Part shown: one piece after another, positions 31,318-36,819 of the stretch | Position numbering within the stretch: the first letter of the stretch is position 1 | How the letters are laid out: every line of letters starts with the position of its first letter | Source: Candidatus Kuenenia stuttgartensis | Lineage (GTDB): Bacteria; Planctomycetota; Phycisphaerae; Phycisphaerales; SM1A02 | Reading direction: 5' to 3' | Length of the DNA: 64,000 nucleotides | Assembly: GCA_945902075.1 (NCBI GenBank) | Contig: CAMDMA010000003.1 | Location: 69,022-133,021, forward strand | Notes under the pieces: model-generated | The model's input: only the letters and a program-made list of their open reading frames with translations | Told to the model about the DNA's origin: nothing | The model's database searches: none | Made by a program: the position numbers and the translations under genes

Positions 31318-31833
31318 ATGGCACGTCACTACAAGCGTCCCGATGATTACTGGCTGAAGCCCGATCCCCGCTTCCAGGACAAGATCCTGTCGAAGTTCAT
31401 CAACTGCGTCATGATCGGCGGCGAAAAGGCCACCGCGCAGCGCTGCGTGTACGGCGCACTCGAGGCGATTCAAATTCGTCTTGAGAAGGAGCGTGCCGCG
31501 GACAAGGAGAAGGCGGAGAACATGCCGCGTTCGTCCATCGAATTGTTTCACCTTGCGCTTGAGAACGTCCGTCCGGCAGTCGAGGTCCGCTCTAAGCGCG
31601 TTGGTGGTGCGAACTACCAAGTGCCGATGCAGCTGAACCGTCGCCGTCAGCAGTCGCTCTCGTTCCGTTGGATCATCGACGCAGCGCGTGACGAGAAGGG
31701 CCGTCCGATGCACCTTCGACTCGCCAAGGAATTTTGGGACGCGGCAAAGAACGAAGGCAAGGCCGTGACCACGAAGGAAAATACGCACCGCATGGCGGAT
31801 GCGAACAAGGCGTTTGCCCACTTCGCATGGTGA
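31318..31833 (+). CDS. rpsG: 30S ribosomal protein S7
   Basis: A 171-residue S7, which nucleates the 30S head on 16S rRNA. Conserved ALENVRPAVEVRSKRVGGANYQVP and HRMADANKAFAHF blocks are clear. Compared with E. coli S7 it has about 14 extra charged residues after the LEAI helix (around residues 48-70). It ends shortly after AHFAW, without the longer E. coli tail. ATG 31318 follows AGGAG at good spacing; an in-frame start 3 codons upstream is unlikely. A strong terminator follows. Confidence 0.96.
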   Translation: MARHYKRPDDYWLKPDPRFQDKILSKFINCVMIGGEKATAQRCVYGALEAIQIRLEKERAADKEKAENMPRSSIELFHLALENVRPAVEVRSKRVGGANYQVPMQLNRRRQQSLSFRWIIDAARDEKGRPMHLRLAKEFWDAAKNEGKAVTTKENTHRMADANKAFAHFAW

Positions 31834-31919
31834 GTGGTTGCCGAGAGGCGATTGAGCTTCCATTCTGAGTTGGTGGTAGCGAACTCTCCTTTCCGAATCT
31901 CTCAAATGATCAGTTTCAC

Positions 31920-31953
31920 GACGGCACCTGCAAGGGTGCCGTCGTTCGCTTTT
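31920..31953 (+). terminator. Intrinsic terminator of the rpsL-rpsG unit
   Basis: GACGGCACC (31920-31928) pairs with GGTGCCGTC (31935-31943) around a 6-base loop, followed by GTTCGCTTTT. It separates the ribosomal genes from the H-NOX gene, which starts at 32005. Confidence 0.85.
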
Positions 31954-32004
31954 CAGAGCCAAGTGGGCCAAGTACAGATTGGATCCCCGCGCTACGCTGC
32001 GCGA

Positions 32005-32571
32005 ATGTACGGACTCATCAACAAGGCCGTCGAGGGACTCGTTCGCAGCAAGTTCGGTGATGTGGCGTGGGATCGCATCCGTACCCGAGCTGGGCTTCCC
32101 GATGAGCCGTTCATTTCGATGGAGCAGTACGACGACCGCACGACCTACGACCTGGTCGGCGCGGCGAGCGTAGAACTCGGCGCGCCTGCGGAAGCAATCC
32201 TTGAGGAGTTCGGACGCTACTGGACTGTGTACACCGCAGAGGCGGGTTACGGCGATCTCATAAAGAGTGCGGGAAAGACGTTGCCAGAGTTTCTCAAGAA
32301 TCTTGACCAATTGCATACGCGCGTCAAACTTGCATTTCCCCAACTTGCGCCGCCAAGTTTTTCCGTGAGAGACGAAACACCAACAGGCCTCACCTTGCAG
32401 TATTTCTCCGACCGACCGAGCCTTGCCCCGCTTGTTGTCGGTCTCTTGAAGGGTCTCGGCGAGCGATTTGAACTCGAAGTTGCTGTACGCGGCGAGCACG
32501 TCGAGACTCCGAGGCCTCACCATCGCTTCTTCGTCACATGGGTCGCTCGTGATACGGGAGTGCGCCATTGA
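32005..32571 (+). CDS. H-NOX heme nitric-oxide/oxygen-binding sensor
   Basis: A 188-residue single-domain H-NOX protein. His104 in NLDQLHTRV is the proximal heme ligand, and Y133-x-S135-x-R137 is the porphyrin-propionate motif YxSxR. The N-terminus MYGLINKAVEGLV is typical. I see no Tyr at the distal position that stabilises O2 in thermophilic O2-binding H-NOX, so NO selectivity is likely, by alignment only. ATG 32005 is chosen because an upstream open frame reads through the terminator region. Its stop overlaps the histidine kinase start by 4 bases, so the two are made together. Confidence 0.94.
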   Translation: MYGLINKAVEGLVRSKFGDVAWDRIRTRAGLPDEPFISMEQYDDRTTYDLVGAASVELGAPAEAILEEFGRYWTVYTAEAGYGDLIKSAGKTLPEFLKNLDQLHTRVKLAFPQLAPPSFSVRDETPTGLTLQYFSDRPSLAPLVVGLLKGLGERFELEVAVRGEHVETPRPHHRFFVTWVARDTGVRH

Positions 32572-34226
32572 GTGATGCGGAACTTTTCGGGCACGAGTGG
32601 GCGGAGCTGATCGGGAAACTTTTTCCGTTTCACTTTGCGATTGATGCTGACGGTCACATTGTTCTCGCGGGTCCGCGTTGGGCGAAGATCGCGCCATTCC
32701 TATGCGTCGGGGCGAAGTTCAGCGAGCAACTTGAGATCGATCGGCCCACCGGAGTCGCTGATTTTTGCACGATCACGCAACATGATGAAAGCGTTTTTCT
32801 CCTCTCGCTCCGACAACGGCCGCAGTTCAAGCTTCGTGGACAGTTCATTCCGATCCCAAATCAAGCCCGCGCATCACACGTACTTTTTGTCGGCGGTCCA
32901 TGGATCACGCGCCTTACTGACATGGCAGAGCACGGGCTTGAGGTCCACGACTTCCCGCCTCACGACCCTCGCGGCGATTTGCTCGTCTTGCTCCAGACTC
33001 ATGAGTCCACGCTCGCCGATCTGAAAGCGCTCACGTGCCGACTGCGTGCGCAGATGGAGCGACAGGGGCAACTCGAAGCGCAGTTACGCCAGATTCAGAA
33101 GATGGAGCTCGTTGGACGGTTCGCTGGCGGCATGGCGCACAACTTCAACAACATTCTTATGGCGATCCACGGATACGCCGCACTCGCGCTCTCGAGGGTT
33201 CCTGCTGGTGACCCGATGCGAGGTTGGGTGGAACAGATTCGCTCGGCGGCGGACCACGCAGCATCACTTACGCGCGAACTTCTCGCGATGAGTCGACAGC
33301 ATCCGATTCGGCTCGAAAAACTGGATCTCCGCCGCGAGTTGGCGGAGACTGAGATGCTGCTTCGTCCATTGCTCGGCGAGCGCATCGAACTCACCTGCGA
33401 GGTTGATTTCACGACCGGTCATGTGATCGCCGATAGCGCAGCGCTCAAGCAGATCATCATGAATCTCGTCATCAATGCGCGCGACGCCATGCCCGACGGA
33501 GGTGCGGTAAAAATTTCCGTCGCTCCAGCGGCCAAGGCACCGAGCGAATCTCTCCGAAAGGGCGATTTCATCGAGATTCGTGTGGCCGATACGGGGATCG
33601 GAATGGACGAGGCAACCAAGTCGCGAATCTTCGAACCGTTTTTTACAACGAAAGAAGTCGGGAAGGGCGTAGGTCTTGGGCTCTCGTCGGTGTATGGACT
33701 TGTGGAACAAGTGGGTGGTTTGATCGAGGTCGAGAGTGAACTCGGCTGCGGCACGACGTTTCACGTGCTGCTGCCGCGCGTGGAGGGGATCGGTGAGGTG
33801 GCAGCCGAAGCGGTCATTGCGCCGAGTGGTGGCCGTGGTGAGCGGATCTTGCTTGTGGAGGATGAGCCACTTGTGCGCAAGTTGCTTGAGCAACTCCTCT
33901 CGCGCGCGGGCTATCAAGTTTCGTCAAGCCTTGGCTCAGACGCAGCTCTTGAGATGGTGAAGCGCGGGCGCCCGTTTGAACTCCTCATCACCGATGTCGT
34001 GATGCCGGGATTGAGCGGTCCGCAACTTGCAGAGCGGATCGAGGACACCTTCGGTTCGACGCCGACCATCTTCATGTCCGGCTATAGCGAGGATGTCGCG
34101 TTGCGCAAGGACATGCTGAAGCCACACCAGCGCTACATGCCCAAGCCATTCGCACCTCCGGAACTGCTTGCGTCTATCCGAGAGCTGCTCACGCGATATC
34201 CCGTCATCGTGCCACCGATGGTGTGA
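32568..34226 (+). CDS. HNOBA hybrid histidine kinase with C-terminal receiver
   Basis: A 552-residue signalling protein. Residues about 1-145 resemble an HNOBA/PAS-like sensor that pairs with H-NOX (FPFHFAIDADGHIVLAGPRW). A coiled coil follows (about 150-185), then HisKA with His191 in AGGMAHNFNNILMAI, a HATPase with N, G1 and G2 boxes (NLVINARDAMPDGG, VADTGIGMD, KGVGLGLSSVYGL), and a REC domain with Asp476 in LLITDVVMPG. There are no membrane segments, so it is cytoplasmic. The upstream H-NOX gene overlaps by 4 bases. The likely circuit is NO binding to H-NOX, which changes kinase activity and relay to the internal receiver; the final output is not in the window. Confidence 0.92.
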   Translation: MSDAELFGHEWAELIGKLFPFHFAIDADGHIVLAGPRWAKIAPFLCVGAKFSEQLEIDRPTGVADFCTITQHDESVFLLSLRQRPQFKLRGQFIPIPNQARASHVLFVGGPWITRLTDMAEHGLEVHDFPPHDPRGDLLVLLQTHESTLADLKALTCRLRAQMERQGQLEAQLRQIQKMELVGRFAGGMAHNFNNILMAIHGYAALALSRVPAGDPMRGWVEQIRSAADHAASLTRELLAMSRQHPIRLEKLDLRRELAETEMLLRPLLGERIELTCEVDFTTGHVIADSAALKQIIMNLVINARDAMPDGGAVKISVAPAAKAPSESLRKGDFIEIRVADTGIGMDEATKSRIFEPFFTTKEVGKGVGLGLSSVYGLVEQVGGLIEVESELGCGTTFHVLLPRVEGIGEVAAEAVIAPSGGRGERILLVEDEPLVRKLLEQLLSRAGYQVSSSLGSDAALEMVKRGRPFELLITDVVMPGLSGPQLAERIEDTFGSTPTIFMSGYSEDVALRKDMLKPHQRYMPKPFAPPELLASIRELLTRYPVIVPPMV

Positions 34227-34323
34227 TGTTTTTTGAGAGGGAAAATCTAGCCGTAAAAGTGTCGAAGGTTGCGGGAGCGACCATGGACCGCTGTACCTTT
34301 GCAAGCTGTGAACGATCGGTCTA

Positions 34324-34352
34324 GGCAGGCCGTCTCAGGGGTGCGGCCTGCC
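34324..34352 (+). terminator. Possible terminator or dyad after the kinase gene
   Basis: GGCAGGCCG (34324-34332) pairs perfectly with CGGCCTGCC (34344-34352) around an 11-base loop. The following GGTGTTTGGG is only mildly T-rich, so termination strength is unclear. The remainder of 34227-34445 shows nothing else. Confidence 0.45.
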
Positions 34353-34445
34353 GGTGTTTGGGTTGATGGAAGTCCGTCGACAACCGTCGATATGCATCGA
34401 CAGCCATTCGATGTTTTTGGTCCGAAGGGACGGAAAGAGGGGTCC

Positions 34446-35930
34446 GTGGTGAACGGCATAGGTTGTTCTTTTTTGAAGAGGCTTGTGGCTTGCGCGCATG
34501 CTCTGAGGTGTCGGAAGATCATTGCACTTCCGGTGCTGGTCGGTGTGTTGCTGGCTGAAGTGCAAACGAATGTCGCTCTCGCAATGCGGGCCCCGCCAGC
34601 AGATATAAAGCGTCGGGTTGAGGCGCTTGCTGCCGAAGCGGCGGATTCCATGCGCGCATCTGCATGGGGCTTCGAAATCTCGCCAGTCATTCGGATTTCA
34701 GACGACCTCGAAACGCAAGACATCCTTGCCTACTTGGTGACGCCGATCGACATCCGGCCTCGTGGCGAGTGGAAGGCACTGCGGCTCGGCGTAGCGATCG
34801 AATCCGTGCCGTCGCAGCGCCGTTTGACGTGCCAGCTTTCAGATGATGATCTCAACGGAGCGTGCGCGTTGCTCGTGCGGTACGCGGCTCTTGCACGCCT
34901 TGAGGATGACATTCAGTTCCCACCAGACACGCTTCGTCAGATACTCGAAGCGCTTCCACGGCCTCCACTGAATCCAGGCGCTACGCCGGGACTTCGGCGC
35001 GCGGTTGCCCGACTCGAACGAGCGGGAAAGCTGAGCACATCTGCGTCGGTCGAGGCACGCGCGTTGTGTGCGGATCTCAATGACGCGCGTCTCGAGGCGC
35101 GGGTGTGGGTCGGGCGGTTTGAGGATCTGTATTTGCGTCTTACACGCCGCGCCGATGGGGCGGAGGGTCGCGCGATCGTCCAACTCGCCCGCGCATTACG
35201 CTTTGCGGAGGCCGGTTGGGACGCGCAAGAGGTTGCCGCAGTCGCCCAACCCTCCGAATTCCGCGCATCCGTGACCCACCGTACGATCGACCGCGTGGGT
35301 GCAGATATCCGACTCGCGCGGACCGCTGGATGCGCGTGCCATGCGTTGGCGGAAATGCTTGTCGCCGTTGAGCCAATCGAGCGACTGTCGATTGAGTCGA
35401 TGATCATCGATGCCGACTCGCGCCTCCGTGTCGGACGACGAACGATCGGTGTCACTGAAGAGCGAATCGACCGTTGGCGGAGGGACTGCGGGATTCGTCG
35501 AACGGAACGAGGATGGGAGGGAGAGTCTTTTCGTCCGCGGCCGCGCACACCCCGGCTGAGAGACGCGCCTTTCGGTATCAAGCCGCTTTCGTTCCGCTAC
35601 CCTCTCGGCGATGCCATCGACTCTCGATCGATATCGCAGGCAAATGCAACTTCCGGCGTTCGGCGAAGCGGGTCAGGCGCGATTGCGCTCCGCGCGCGTG
35701 CTGGTCGCCGGTTGTGGCGCACTGGGGACGGTGGTGTGCGAGCAGCTCGCGCGCGCGGGAGTGGGGACTCTCACGATCATCGACCGAGATGTTGTGGAGC
35801 GTTCAAACCTCCAGCGCCAGACCCTGTTCACGGAGGTCGATGCGGCTCGCGGTGTGCCAAAGGCAGAAGCTGCGAAGGCACGCCTCGCCCAGGTCAACGG
35901 GGAGATCATCGTTCGGGCATTCGTCGATGA
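34446..35930 (+). CDS. Secreted protein of unknown family, overlapping the next gene
   Basis: A predicted 494-residue frame that I do not recognise. It starts at GTG 34446 (or 34449) after a GAGGGG site. The N-terminus looks like a signal peptide (CRKIIALPVLVGVLLAEVQ, then NVALA and cleavage), so the product is probably exported. The body (about 60-370) is rich in charged helices with no clear motif. The frame continues 320 bases into the ThiF-like gene, and its last ~110 residues become Arg/Ser-rich, like shadow translation. A TGA in the +1 frame at 35557-35559 suggests that a one-base shift may have destroyed the true stop. Real coding probably ends near 35560. Confidence 0.5.
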   Translation: MVNGIGCSFLKRLVACAHALRCRKIIALPVLVGVLLAEVQTNVALAMRAPPADIKRRVEALAAEAADSMRASAWGFEISPVIRISDDLETQDILAYLVTPIDIRPRGEWKALRLGVAIESVPSQRRLTCQLSDDDLNGACALLVRYAALARLEDDIQFPPDTLRQILEALPRPPLNPGATPGLRRAVARLERAGKLSTSASVEARALCADLNDARLEARVWVGRFEDLYLRLTRRADGAEGRAIVQLARALRFAEAGWDAQEVAAVAQPSEFRASVTHRTIDRVGADIRLARTAGCACHALAEMLVAVEPIERLSIESMIIDADSRLRVGRRTIGVTEERIDRWRRDCGIRRTERGWEGESFRPRPRTPRLRDAPFGIKPLSFRYPLGDAIDSRSISQANATSGVRRSGSGAIALRARAGRRLWRTGDGGVRAARARGSGDSHDHRPRCCGAFKPPAPDPVHGGRCGSRCAKGRSCEGTPRPGQRGDHRSGIRR

Positions 35931-36819
35931 TCTCGTTTCGGCAAACGCGCTTCGATACACCCGAGAGTGCGATCTGCTCGTCGATTGTCTCGACAACTTC
36001 GAGACTCGCTACCTCTTGAACGACTGCGCAGTCGCCCAAGGGTTACCACTGGTCTATGGCGGGGCGGTTGGCTTCCGTGGTATGGCAGCGGCGCTTCTGC
36101 CAATCACCGGTGCCGATCGCGGCGGTGCGGTGTCTTGGAACGTCGGGCAGTCGACACCGTGTCTCCGTTGTATCGCGCCCGATGCACCGCTGCCTGGAGA
36201 AGTGGAGACATGCGAGAGTTCCGGGGTATTGGCGAGCGCAGTCGGAATCGCCGCTTCGATTGAAGCTGCGCTCGCGTTGCGCCTACTCGCGGAGTCGCCG
36301 CTCATACTTCCTGCGAGGTTGGTGCGATTCGATCTCGCACGACTCGATTTCACATCCTCCTCGATCGCTGGCGCGCGGGATGAAGACTGCCCCTGTTGCG
36401 CTGCGCATAGGTTCGCCTCGCTTGAGCGTCAAACAGGTGCTGGAGGCGAGGGGAATTGCCGGGTGCTCTGCGGTCGCAATGCGGTCGAGCTTCGTATCGC
36501 TGGAGCACTTGCGGAGGCGGAACTTGAGCGCATCGCGGTACGGCTTGCGGCGCAGGGAATGGTCGTGCGTGATCGGGTTGGCGCGACGACGACGCTGACG
36601 GTGCGGTTTCACGGATCGGCTCATGACATCAGGCAATTTGCCTTGGATGACGTTCGGTCTGCTCCGGGAACGAGCGAAATTCCTGCAGAGTTGGATGGAT
36701 GGAGCGGCAGCGTTGCGTTGACCGTACTCGCCGCGGAGAGAGCGACATTTGCCATCATCACGGGTACCACCGATCCTGAGCGTGCCCGTGCACTCTTCGC
36801 GCGGGTTGTGGGTCTCTGA
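35611..36819 (+). CDS. ThiF/MoeB/HesA family adenylyltransferase
   Basis: A 402-residue E1-like enzyme that adenylates the C-terminus of a sulfur-carrier protein. It has the family start DRYRRQMQLPAFGEAGQARL, the nucleotide motif VLVAGCGALGT, DRDVVERSNLQRQ, and the DCLDNFETRYLLND stretch. CLRC and CPCC supply a likely structural zinc site. The C-terminal 120 residues are unlike rhodanese and may form a small extra domain. No ThiS or MoaD gene is next to it, so thiamin, molybdopterin or another pathway cannot be chosen. ATG 35611 fits the family start, although it lies inside the preceding frame. Confidence 0.9.
   Translation: MPSTLDRYRRQMQLPAFGEAGQARLRSARVLVAGCGALGTVVCEQLARAGVGTLTIIDRDVVERSNLQRQTLFTEVDAARGVPKAEAAKARLAQVNGEIIVRAFVDDLVSANALRYTRECDLLVDCLDNFETRYLLNDCAVAQGLPLVYGGAVGFRGMAAALLPITGADRGGAVSWNVGQSTPCLRCIAPDAPLPGEVETCESSGVLASAVGIAASIEAALALRLLAESPLILPARLVRFDLARLDFTSSSIAGARDEDCPCCAAHRFASLERQTGAGGEGNCRVLCGRNAVELRIAGALAEAELERIAVRLAAQGMVVRDRVGATTTLTVRFHGSAHDIRQFALDDVRSAPGTSEIPAELDGWSGSVALTVLAAERATFAIITGTTDPERARALFARVVGL

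Follow-up and report, generated by a model that had tools for sequence, protein, structure and literature searches.

A probable NO-responsive two-component sensor of the sGC type in a Planctomycetota genome: an H-NOX protein and its HNOBA-headed hybrid histidine kinase

At positions 32005–34226 of the window, the whole stretch of 64,000 nucleotides that was analysed, an H-NOX gene adjoins a hybrid histidine kinase gene, and the two probably encode a NO-responsive two-component sensor of the sGC type, working by the mechanism proposed below. The pair is an intact and rather ordinary example of an already described kind, related to the animal NO receptor; kinases with an H-NOXA/HNOBA head appear in passages of PMC2904703 and PMC2828450, the former citing Iyer et al. 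2003 for bacterial homologues. The wider family, in which the outputs are exchanged, is more interesting than the window copy. A preliminary description had proposed an intact H-NOX, an HNOBA head, a hybrid kinase, sensing of NO rather than O2 and the absence of an adjacent regulator, all of which the sequence supports, NO being the more likely ligand; it lends no support to proteobacterial relatives, a lineage-specific layout or equal synthesis of the two proteins.

The H-NOX gene (188 aa, plus strand, 32005..32571) runs from ATG at 32005 to TGA at 32571 and the kinase gene (552 aa, plus strand, 32568..34226) from TTG at 32568 to TGA at 34226. The four-base overlap is real: it is the TTGA at 32568..32571 (plus strand), which joins the H-NOX stop to the kinase TTG start, and an in-frame ATG at 32538 meets a stop four codons on. 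The overlap suggests translational coupling. Equal synthesis had been read from it, but this is unsupported, as the kinase starts with TTG and an overlap bears on coupling, not on a ratio. Terminator-like hairpins enclose both genes, one of 12 pairs (8 GC) between rpsG and the H-NOX gene (31918..31945, plus strand) and one covering the kinase stop codon (34205..34228, plus strand), and the pair therefore looks like one short transcription unit; terminator-like sites are frequent here (11 found in 3 kb, 3.3 expected), and no sigma-70-like promoter was found in 31600–34600. The genes for ribosomal proteins S12 and S7 lie 5′ of the pair, rpsG (Ribosomal_S7, 168.3 bits) ending at 31833. At codon positions 1, 2 and 3, the H-NOX genes of the window and of a relative (L192) differ by 0.15, 0.11 and 0.55 per site, an order that the other domains and relatives share. 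To judge from the sequence, these are real genes and not chance frames.

The source genome (3.3 Mb, 97% complete, 70 contigs) holds one H-NOX and one HNOBA protein in total. The gene order rpsG–H-NOX–kinase–ThiF recurs in the genus: frames clustering with those of the window were found for rpsG in 12 of 15 loci, and for the kinase and the downstream frames in 14 of 15 each, the rest being mostly cut by contig ends. At 34257–36819, the ThiF-like gene shares about 320 bases with a 557-aa frame, which gave no Pfam match over the 553 aa scanned; some relatives have a single long frame that clusters with the two.

The H-NOX gives a Pfam HNOB match of 162.8 bits (E 8.6e-48; cut-off 25.5 bits). Alignment places the proximal heme ligand, His104, at 32314..32316 and the YxSxR motif, Y133-F-S135-D-R137, at 32401..32415 (both plus strand), so the domain is intact, as originally described. 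Among 193 HNOBA-paired copies, in which some genomes are counted twice, H104, Y133 and R137 are present in 192, the remaining copy having a gap; at position 135, 182 copies have Ser and 10 have Thr. An AlphaFold2 model (mean pLDDT 92.9) has the H-NOX fold, with a TM score of 0.89 to Nostoc 2o09, the best match, followed by human sGC beta-1 (TM 0.81–0.88).

Comparison with solved structures places the protein more closely. It scores 181 bits against Nostoc Alr2278 and 101–105 bits against human sGC beta-1, and 22–27 bits against the Shewanella, Kordia-type and Thermoanaerobacter H-NOX structures. An HNOBA-less H-NOX of the same phylum behaves in the opposite way, with 145 bits to Shewanella woodyi and 25 to Alr2278, sGC not being among the matches listed. 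Trp73 (codon 32221..32223, plus strand, from alignment) marks the HNOBA-paired H-NOXs: in the phylum sample, 21 of 22 paired copies carry Trp here, against 1 of 30 unpaired ones, with one gap in each group. By these structure scores and the split at position 73, the phylum holds two H-NOX subfamilies and the window member is of the sGC type. The positions that separate paired from unpaired H-NOX are probably a clade signature and not independent events. In a 2006 phylogeny, cyanobacterial H-NOB is closest to animal sGC (PMC1435932). The proteobacterial H-NOX/kinase pairs invoked as precedent by the preliminary description were thus misplaced, since their H-NOXs belong to the other subfamily (Shewanella 22–26 bits, Alr2278 181 bits).

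All four domains of the kinase exceed their Pfam cut-offs (HNOBA 69.9, HisKA 30.3, HATPase_c 83.1 and Response_reg 70.6 bits; HNOBA cut-off 23.4), and no key residue of kinase or receiver is lost, which bears out the HNOBA-headed hybrid kinase. On the plus strand, the PAS-like HNOBA head, from Pfam and structure matches, spans about aa 13–165 (32604..33062), HisKA 33114..33299 with the phosphoacceptor His191 at 33138–33140, HATPase_c 33432..33779, and the receiver 33846..34178 with Asp476 at 33993–33995 and Lys526. H191, N303, G369, G371, D432, D476 and K526 are invariant in 60 rows, namely the window kinase plus 59 out of 75 further kinases listed with a receiver. Residues 13–125 match the PAS domain of a histidine kinase, 2p04/2p08 (E 3e-14; 2p08 2.9e-14), the closest relative of the head with a solved structure, whose organism is Nostoc punctiforme (PMC3765656), and residues 17–171 match Manduca sGC beta-1 from the PAS domain into the coiled coil (E 5e-10). 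In the AlphaFold2 model (pLDDT 80, pTM 0.42, domain packing not reliable), a single long helix, aa 134–210 (32967..33197, plus strand), leads from HNOBA into the DHp helix, with a pLDDT of 56–66 in part of aa 171–200. Foldseek with the whole model returned kinase cores among the 50 matches listed and was uninformative on the HNOBA head. For the kinase core, the best NCBIfam model is CckA, under its cut-off, and the CckA core 5idj aligns at 162 bits. Feedback of c-di-GMP on the kinase, as in CckA, was considered: of the CckA site residues that we take to be Tyr514, Lys518 and Trp523, only the first is conserved, and the remainder of the site falls beyond the aligned chain.

Anatomy, residues, subfamily and adjacency can be read from the sequence, and from there we infer heme, NO, docking, the sign of the effect and the target. 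The pair most likely works like a split sGC: the HNOBA head would be the docking site of a separate H-NOX, and a kinase would take the place of the cyclase driven by the coiled coil. By analogy with sGC and the Nostoc relatives, the free H-NOX would bind ferrous heme, exclude O2 for want of a distal Tyr, and attach in trans to the dimeric HNOBA head and the helix that follows. NO at the His104 heme would move the H-NOX and thereby change the coiled coil running into the DHp helix; this change would switch autophosphorylation of His191 on or off, and phosphate would pass from His191 to Asp476 of the attached receiver, and then to an HPt or a separate regulator. Passages of PMC6839917 state that H-NOX residues 82–126 of sGC touch the PAS domain and the PAS–coiled-coil linker, a contact also supported in PMC3765656, and that activation straightens the coiled coil.

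Outside the kinase, no receiver, kinase or GGDEF match lies within 5 kb in the window or in the 14 fetched genus loci, several of them cut by contig ends, in agreement with the earlier remark that no output regulator is adjacent. A conserved third gene acting as regulator was considered for the genus and rejected, as the recurring neighbours include none. The genome as a whole gives 26 receiver matches (25 above cut-off), 3 GGDEF matches, 4 Hpt matches and 17 HATPase_c matches above cut-off. All but one of the Hpt matches are in frames of 800–963 aa; the exception, a small HPt of 127 aa, is an orphan whose gene overlaps a REC-GGDEF gene, with recO and an HDOD-GGDEF gene coming next. This HPt, the genome's only orphan, is our tentative first candidate and would give NO control of c-di-GMP. 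The search for an orphan HPt or regulator, proposed at the outset, thus yielded one HPt before a REC-GGDEF gene, in an operon that does not track H-NOX by genus. Across 45 genera, both are present in 12, H-NOX alone in 7, the operon alone in 16 and neither in 10 (p = 1); by genome (n = 181) the corresponding counts are 63, 34, 38 and 46, a weak association (p = 0.011). These tests count any H-NOX, HNOBA-paired or not, and the statistics ignore kinship. The REC-GGDEF gene occurs in 101 of 181 family genomes, and the family has at least 43 Hpt places, mostly short frames (three >300 aa), 36 of the 43 lying within 300 bases of a REC-GGDEF gene in a partial count. Genome G459 (99% complete), whose kinase falls on the window's side of the kinase tree, is neither among the Hpt matches listed nor in the REC-GGDEF list. 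The same HPt could also serve at least four other frames of the source genome that combine HATPase_c with a receiver. Since H-NOX and the operon are out of step by genus and G459 is in neither list, the HPt/REC-GGDEF operon is a candidate and not a demonstrated partner; a dedicated partnership was rejected on these grounds, together with the weak association by genome.

The same genome, G459, which keeps the H-NOX/kinase pair, favours another possible though not probable account, namely that the attached receiver is the end point, a phosphate sink or intramolecular switch, and that the output runs through another regulator touched by the DHp. The 15 genus loci, several cut by contig ends, point the same way, none having a receiver match beside the pair. 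Hybrid kinases with a CckA-like core, the type to which the window kinase comes closest (best NCBIfam CckA, below cut-off), usually relay phosphate onward, which speaks against a terminal receiver.

A c-di-GMP phosphodiesterase of the REC-HD-GYP type, the output suggested by other genera of the family, is an unlikely target here. In 13 family loci from four genera (L195, L196, L202, L204, L208, L210, L212–L215, L228, L233 and L243) a REC-HD-GYP gene lies behind the kinase gene in the same orientation; in 12 of them the two overlap or are no more than 51 bases apart, and in L210 the distance is 338 bases. In one genome of the family, a different H-NOX is paired with a GAF-HD-GYP protein. All these HD-GYP genes next to H-NOX genes encode separate proteins. 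The L214 HD-GYP looks degenerate by eye (HN for HD, GFP for GYP) and is still matched by Pfam. However, in an 82-row kinase tree, built by a quick method with a midpoint root and several long branches, the REC-HD-GYP kinases lie across the root from the window group, with none among the 38 rows on the window's side, and the source genome has no close copy, its best HD-GYP matches being 40–42% identical; a REC-HD-GYP-like protein is encoded on its contig C13. On account of this split in the tree, we reject extending the REC-HD-GYP link to the window.

As to the ligand, NO is the better reading of the sequence than O2. The window H-NOX has Leu143 (codon 32431..32433, plus strand, from alignment) in place of the distal Tyr of O2-binding H-NOX, as first claimed. 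Leu143 aligns with M144 of Alr2278, which we take to be the distal position, equivalent to Tyr-140. HNOBA-paired copies have L, F, M or V at this position, never Tyr, and Tyr is found in none of the 228 copies with a residue there (231 aligned; some genomes twice). At the positions of the O2-type Trp-9 and Asn-74 the window protein has V9 and W73, an equivalence that we presume beyond the alignment of 73 to 74; the V9 assignment assumes a gap-free N-terminus, and the 73/74 equivalence comes from alignment to Alr2278. Both O2-type residues are reported beside the distal Tyr in a passage of PMC1435932, which likewise describes O2-binding H-NOX in some anaerobes. That precedent and the invariant Trp73, which might change ligand choice, speak for O2 or CO sensing, an account that we hold to be quite improbable. 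Cysteine-based, heme-independent redox sensing, the Cys/zinc route described for Vibrio cholerae H-NOX in part of PMC8738867, has a negligible chance, being closed to the window H-NOX because its sequence contains no cysteine.

The pair belongs to a widespread module. Of the 392 genomes in the phylum sample, 42 carry H-NOX and 22 carry HNOBA; 20 of these 22 also have H-NOX (counted by hand), against 42 of 392 overall. An sGC-type H-NOX/HNOBA module in print for Nostoc and animals is here documented in a Planctomycetota family, where 97 of 181 genomes carry H-NOX, not all of the window's type. A literature search found no paper on H-NOX with Planctomycetes and histidine kinase, or with Planctomycetota, which does not prove absence. 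The hybrid layout, previously regarded as peculiar to the lineage, is the commonest in the family: HNOBA-kinase-REC is seen in 63 of 87 fetched loci (including the window, and some cut by contig ends), 17 of them with two tandem H-NOX genes; 4 have an HNOBA-kinase with no receiver seen, 13 an HNOBA without a kinase-profile match, and in 7 no HNOBA was found. This count leaves aside weak or partial H-NOX places, as well as a number of genomes such as G402, G403, G410, G436, G444–G446, G486–G488, G493, G506, G507, G521 and G523. Among the matches listed, the named records with the nearest H-NOX are mostly Planctomycetota, Planctomycetaceae, Phycisphaera and Phycisphaerales, with some labelled "uncultured bacterium" and two labelled otherwise, a Candidatus Kuenenia MAG and a Limnohabitans MAG. 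The named-genome scan (at least 80 loci), whose search pattern was derived from paired H-NOX and so favours that type, as the phylum sample does not, found HNOBA pairs in records labelled Verrucomicrobia, Acidobacteria, Chloroflexi, Bacteroidetes, Cyanobacteria and Proteobacteria at least, and it is this span of phyla that makes the module widespread.

Several variants were seen in passing. Two H-NOX genes, 44–78% identical and both with the heme His, Trp73 and YxS/TxR, stand beside one HNOBA kinase in L052, L096, L097, L173, L200, L204, L205, L211, L212, L223–L227, L229–L231, L234 and L235; L096/L173 and L097/L200 look like the same loci from two collections. HNOBA is joined to HWE kinases in eight loci (L198, L199, L201, L207, L209, L217, L220 and L222), joined to a SpoIIE-type phosphatase with HATPase in L038, and joined to GGDEF, as detected with our own profile, in L154, L155, L157 and L166. 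One genome (locus L245) combines HNOBA with a class III nucleotide cyclase in a split, sGC-like layout, the sole such case among the scanned loci; its HNOBA scores 20.6 bits, below the 23.4 cut-off, and E 2e-20 with our own profile. HNOBA-less H-NOX genes overlap or adjoin genes for GAF-HD-GYP and GGDEF-EAL proteins in L247 (G489) and L250 (G438). In L075 and L076 (genome G360, 98% complete) both H-NOX copies are split over two frames, by decay or assembly error. The pair of L041 (G054) belongs to a different family (f51) and yet falls, on a long branch, beside the window in the tree, its H-NOX being 60% identical, which suggests horizontal transfer.

More speculatively, and with less expectation of being right, the sensor half of sGC (a free H-NOX with an HNOBA–coiled-coil protein) may be a module that related Planctomycetota lineages join to varied outputs, namely hybrid or HWE kinases, a SpoIIE phosphatase and one class III cyclase, the window holding the kinase form and leading from NO to c-di-GMP via the orphan HPt and REC-GGDEF. 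In an H-NOX/PAS/coiled-coil switch made of two proteins acting in trans, the sensor could be taken away or swapped for another while the enzyme stays as it is. With so few receivers in the genome (26 matches, 25 above cut-off) and one orphan HPt, the downstream pathway lends itself to testing.

Among known systems, the proteobacterial HnoX/HnoK-type pairs likewise have an H-NOX gene adjoining a kinase gene, with NO control proposed, but their H-NOX is of the Shewanella/Vibrio subfamily and the window's is not; Caulobacter, the sole H-NOX carrier of 14 control genomes, has no HNOBA match. Nostoc (Alr2278 and the N. punctiforme kinase 2p04/2p08) has a stand-alone H-NOX of the same subfamily as the window's, 43–48% identical in structure matches, and its kinase shares the PAS head. 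In Nostoc parmelioides (L153) the gene order is that of the window, but there are two receivers where the window kinase has one, and the core of the window kinase, nearest CckA, lies in a different part of the tree from the cyanobacterial system. The window pair differs from animal sGC in that the H-NOX is a separate protein, the source genome holds only one H-NOX and one HNOBA protein, and a hybrid kinase, where sGC has a cyclase, provides the output; Pfam gives no class III cyclase match in the kinase, which is not itself an sGC. In animal sGC beta-1, the H-NOX, PAS (HNOBA) and coiled coil follow one another in the same order as in the window pair.
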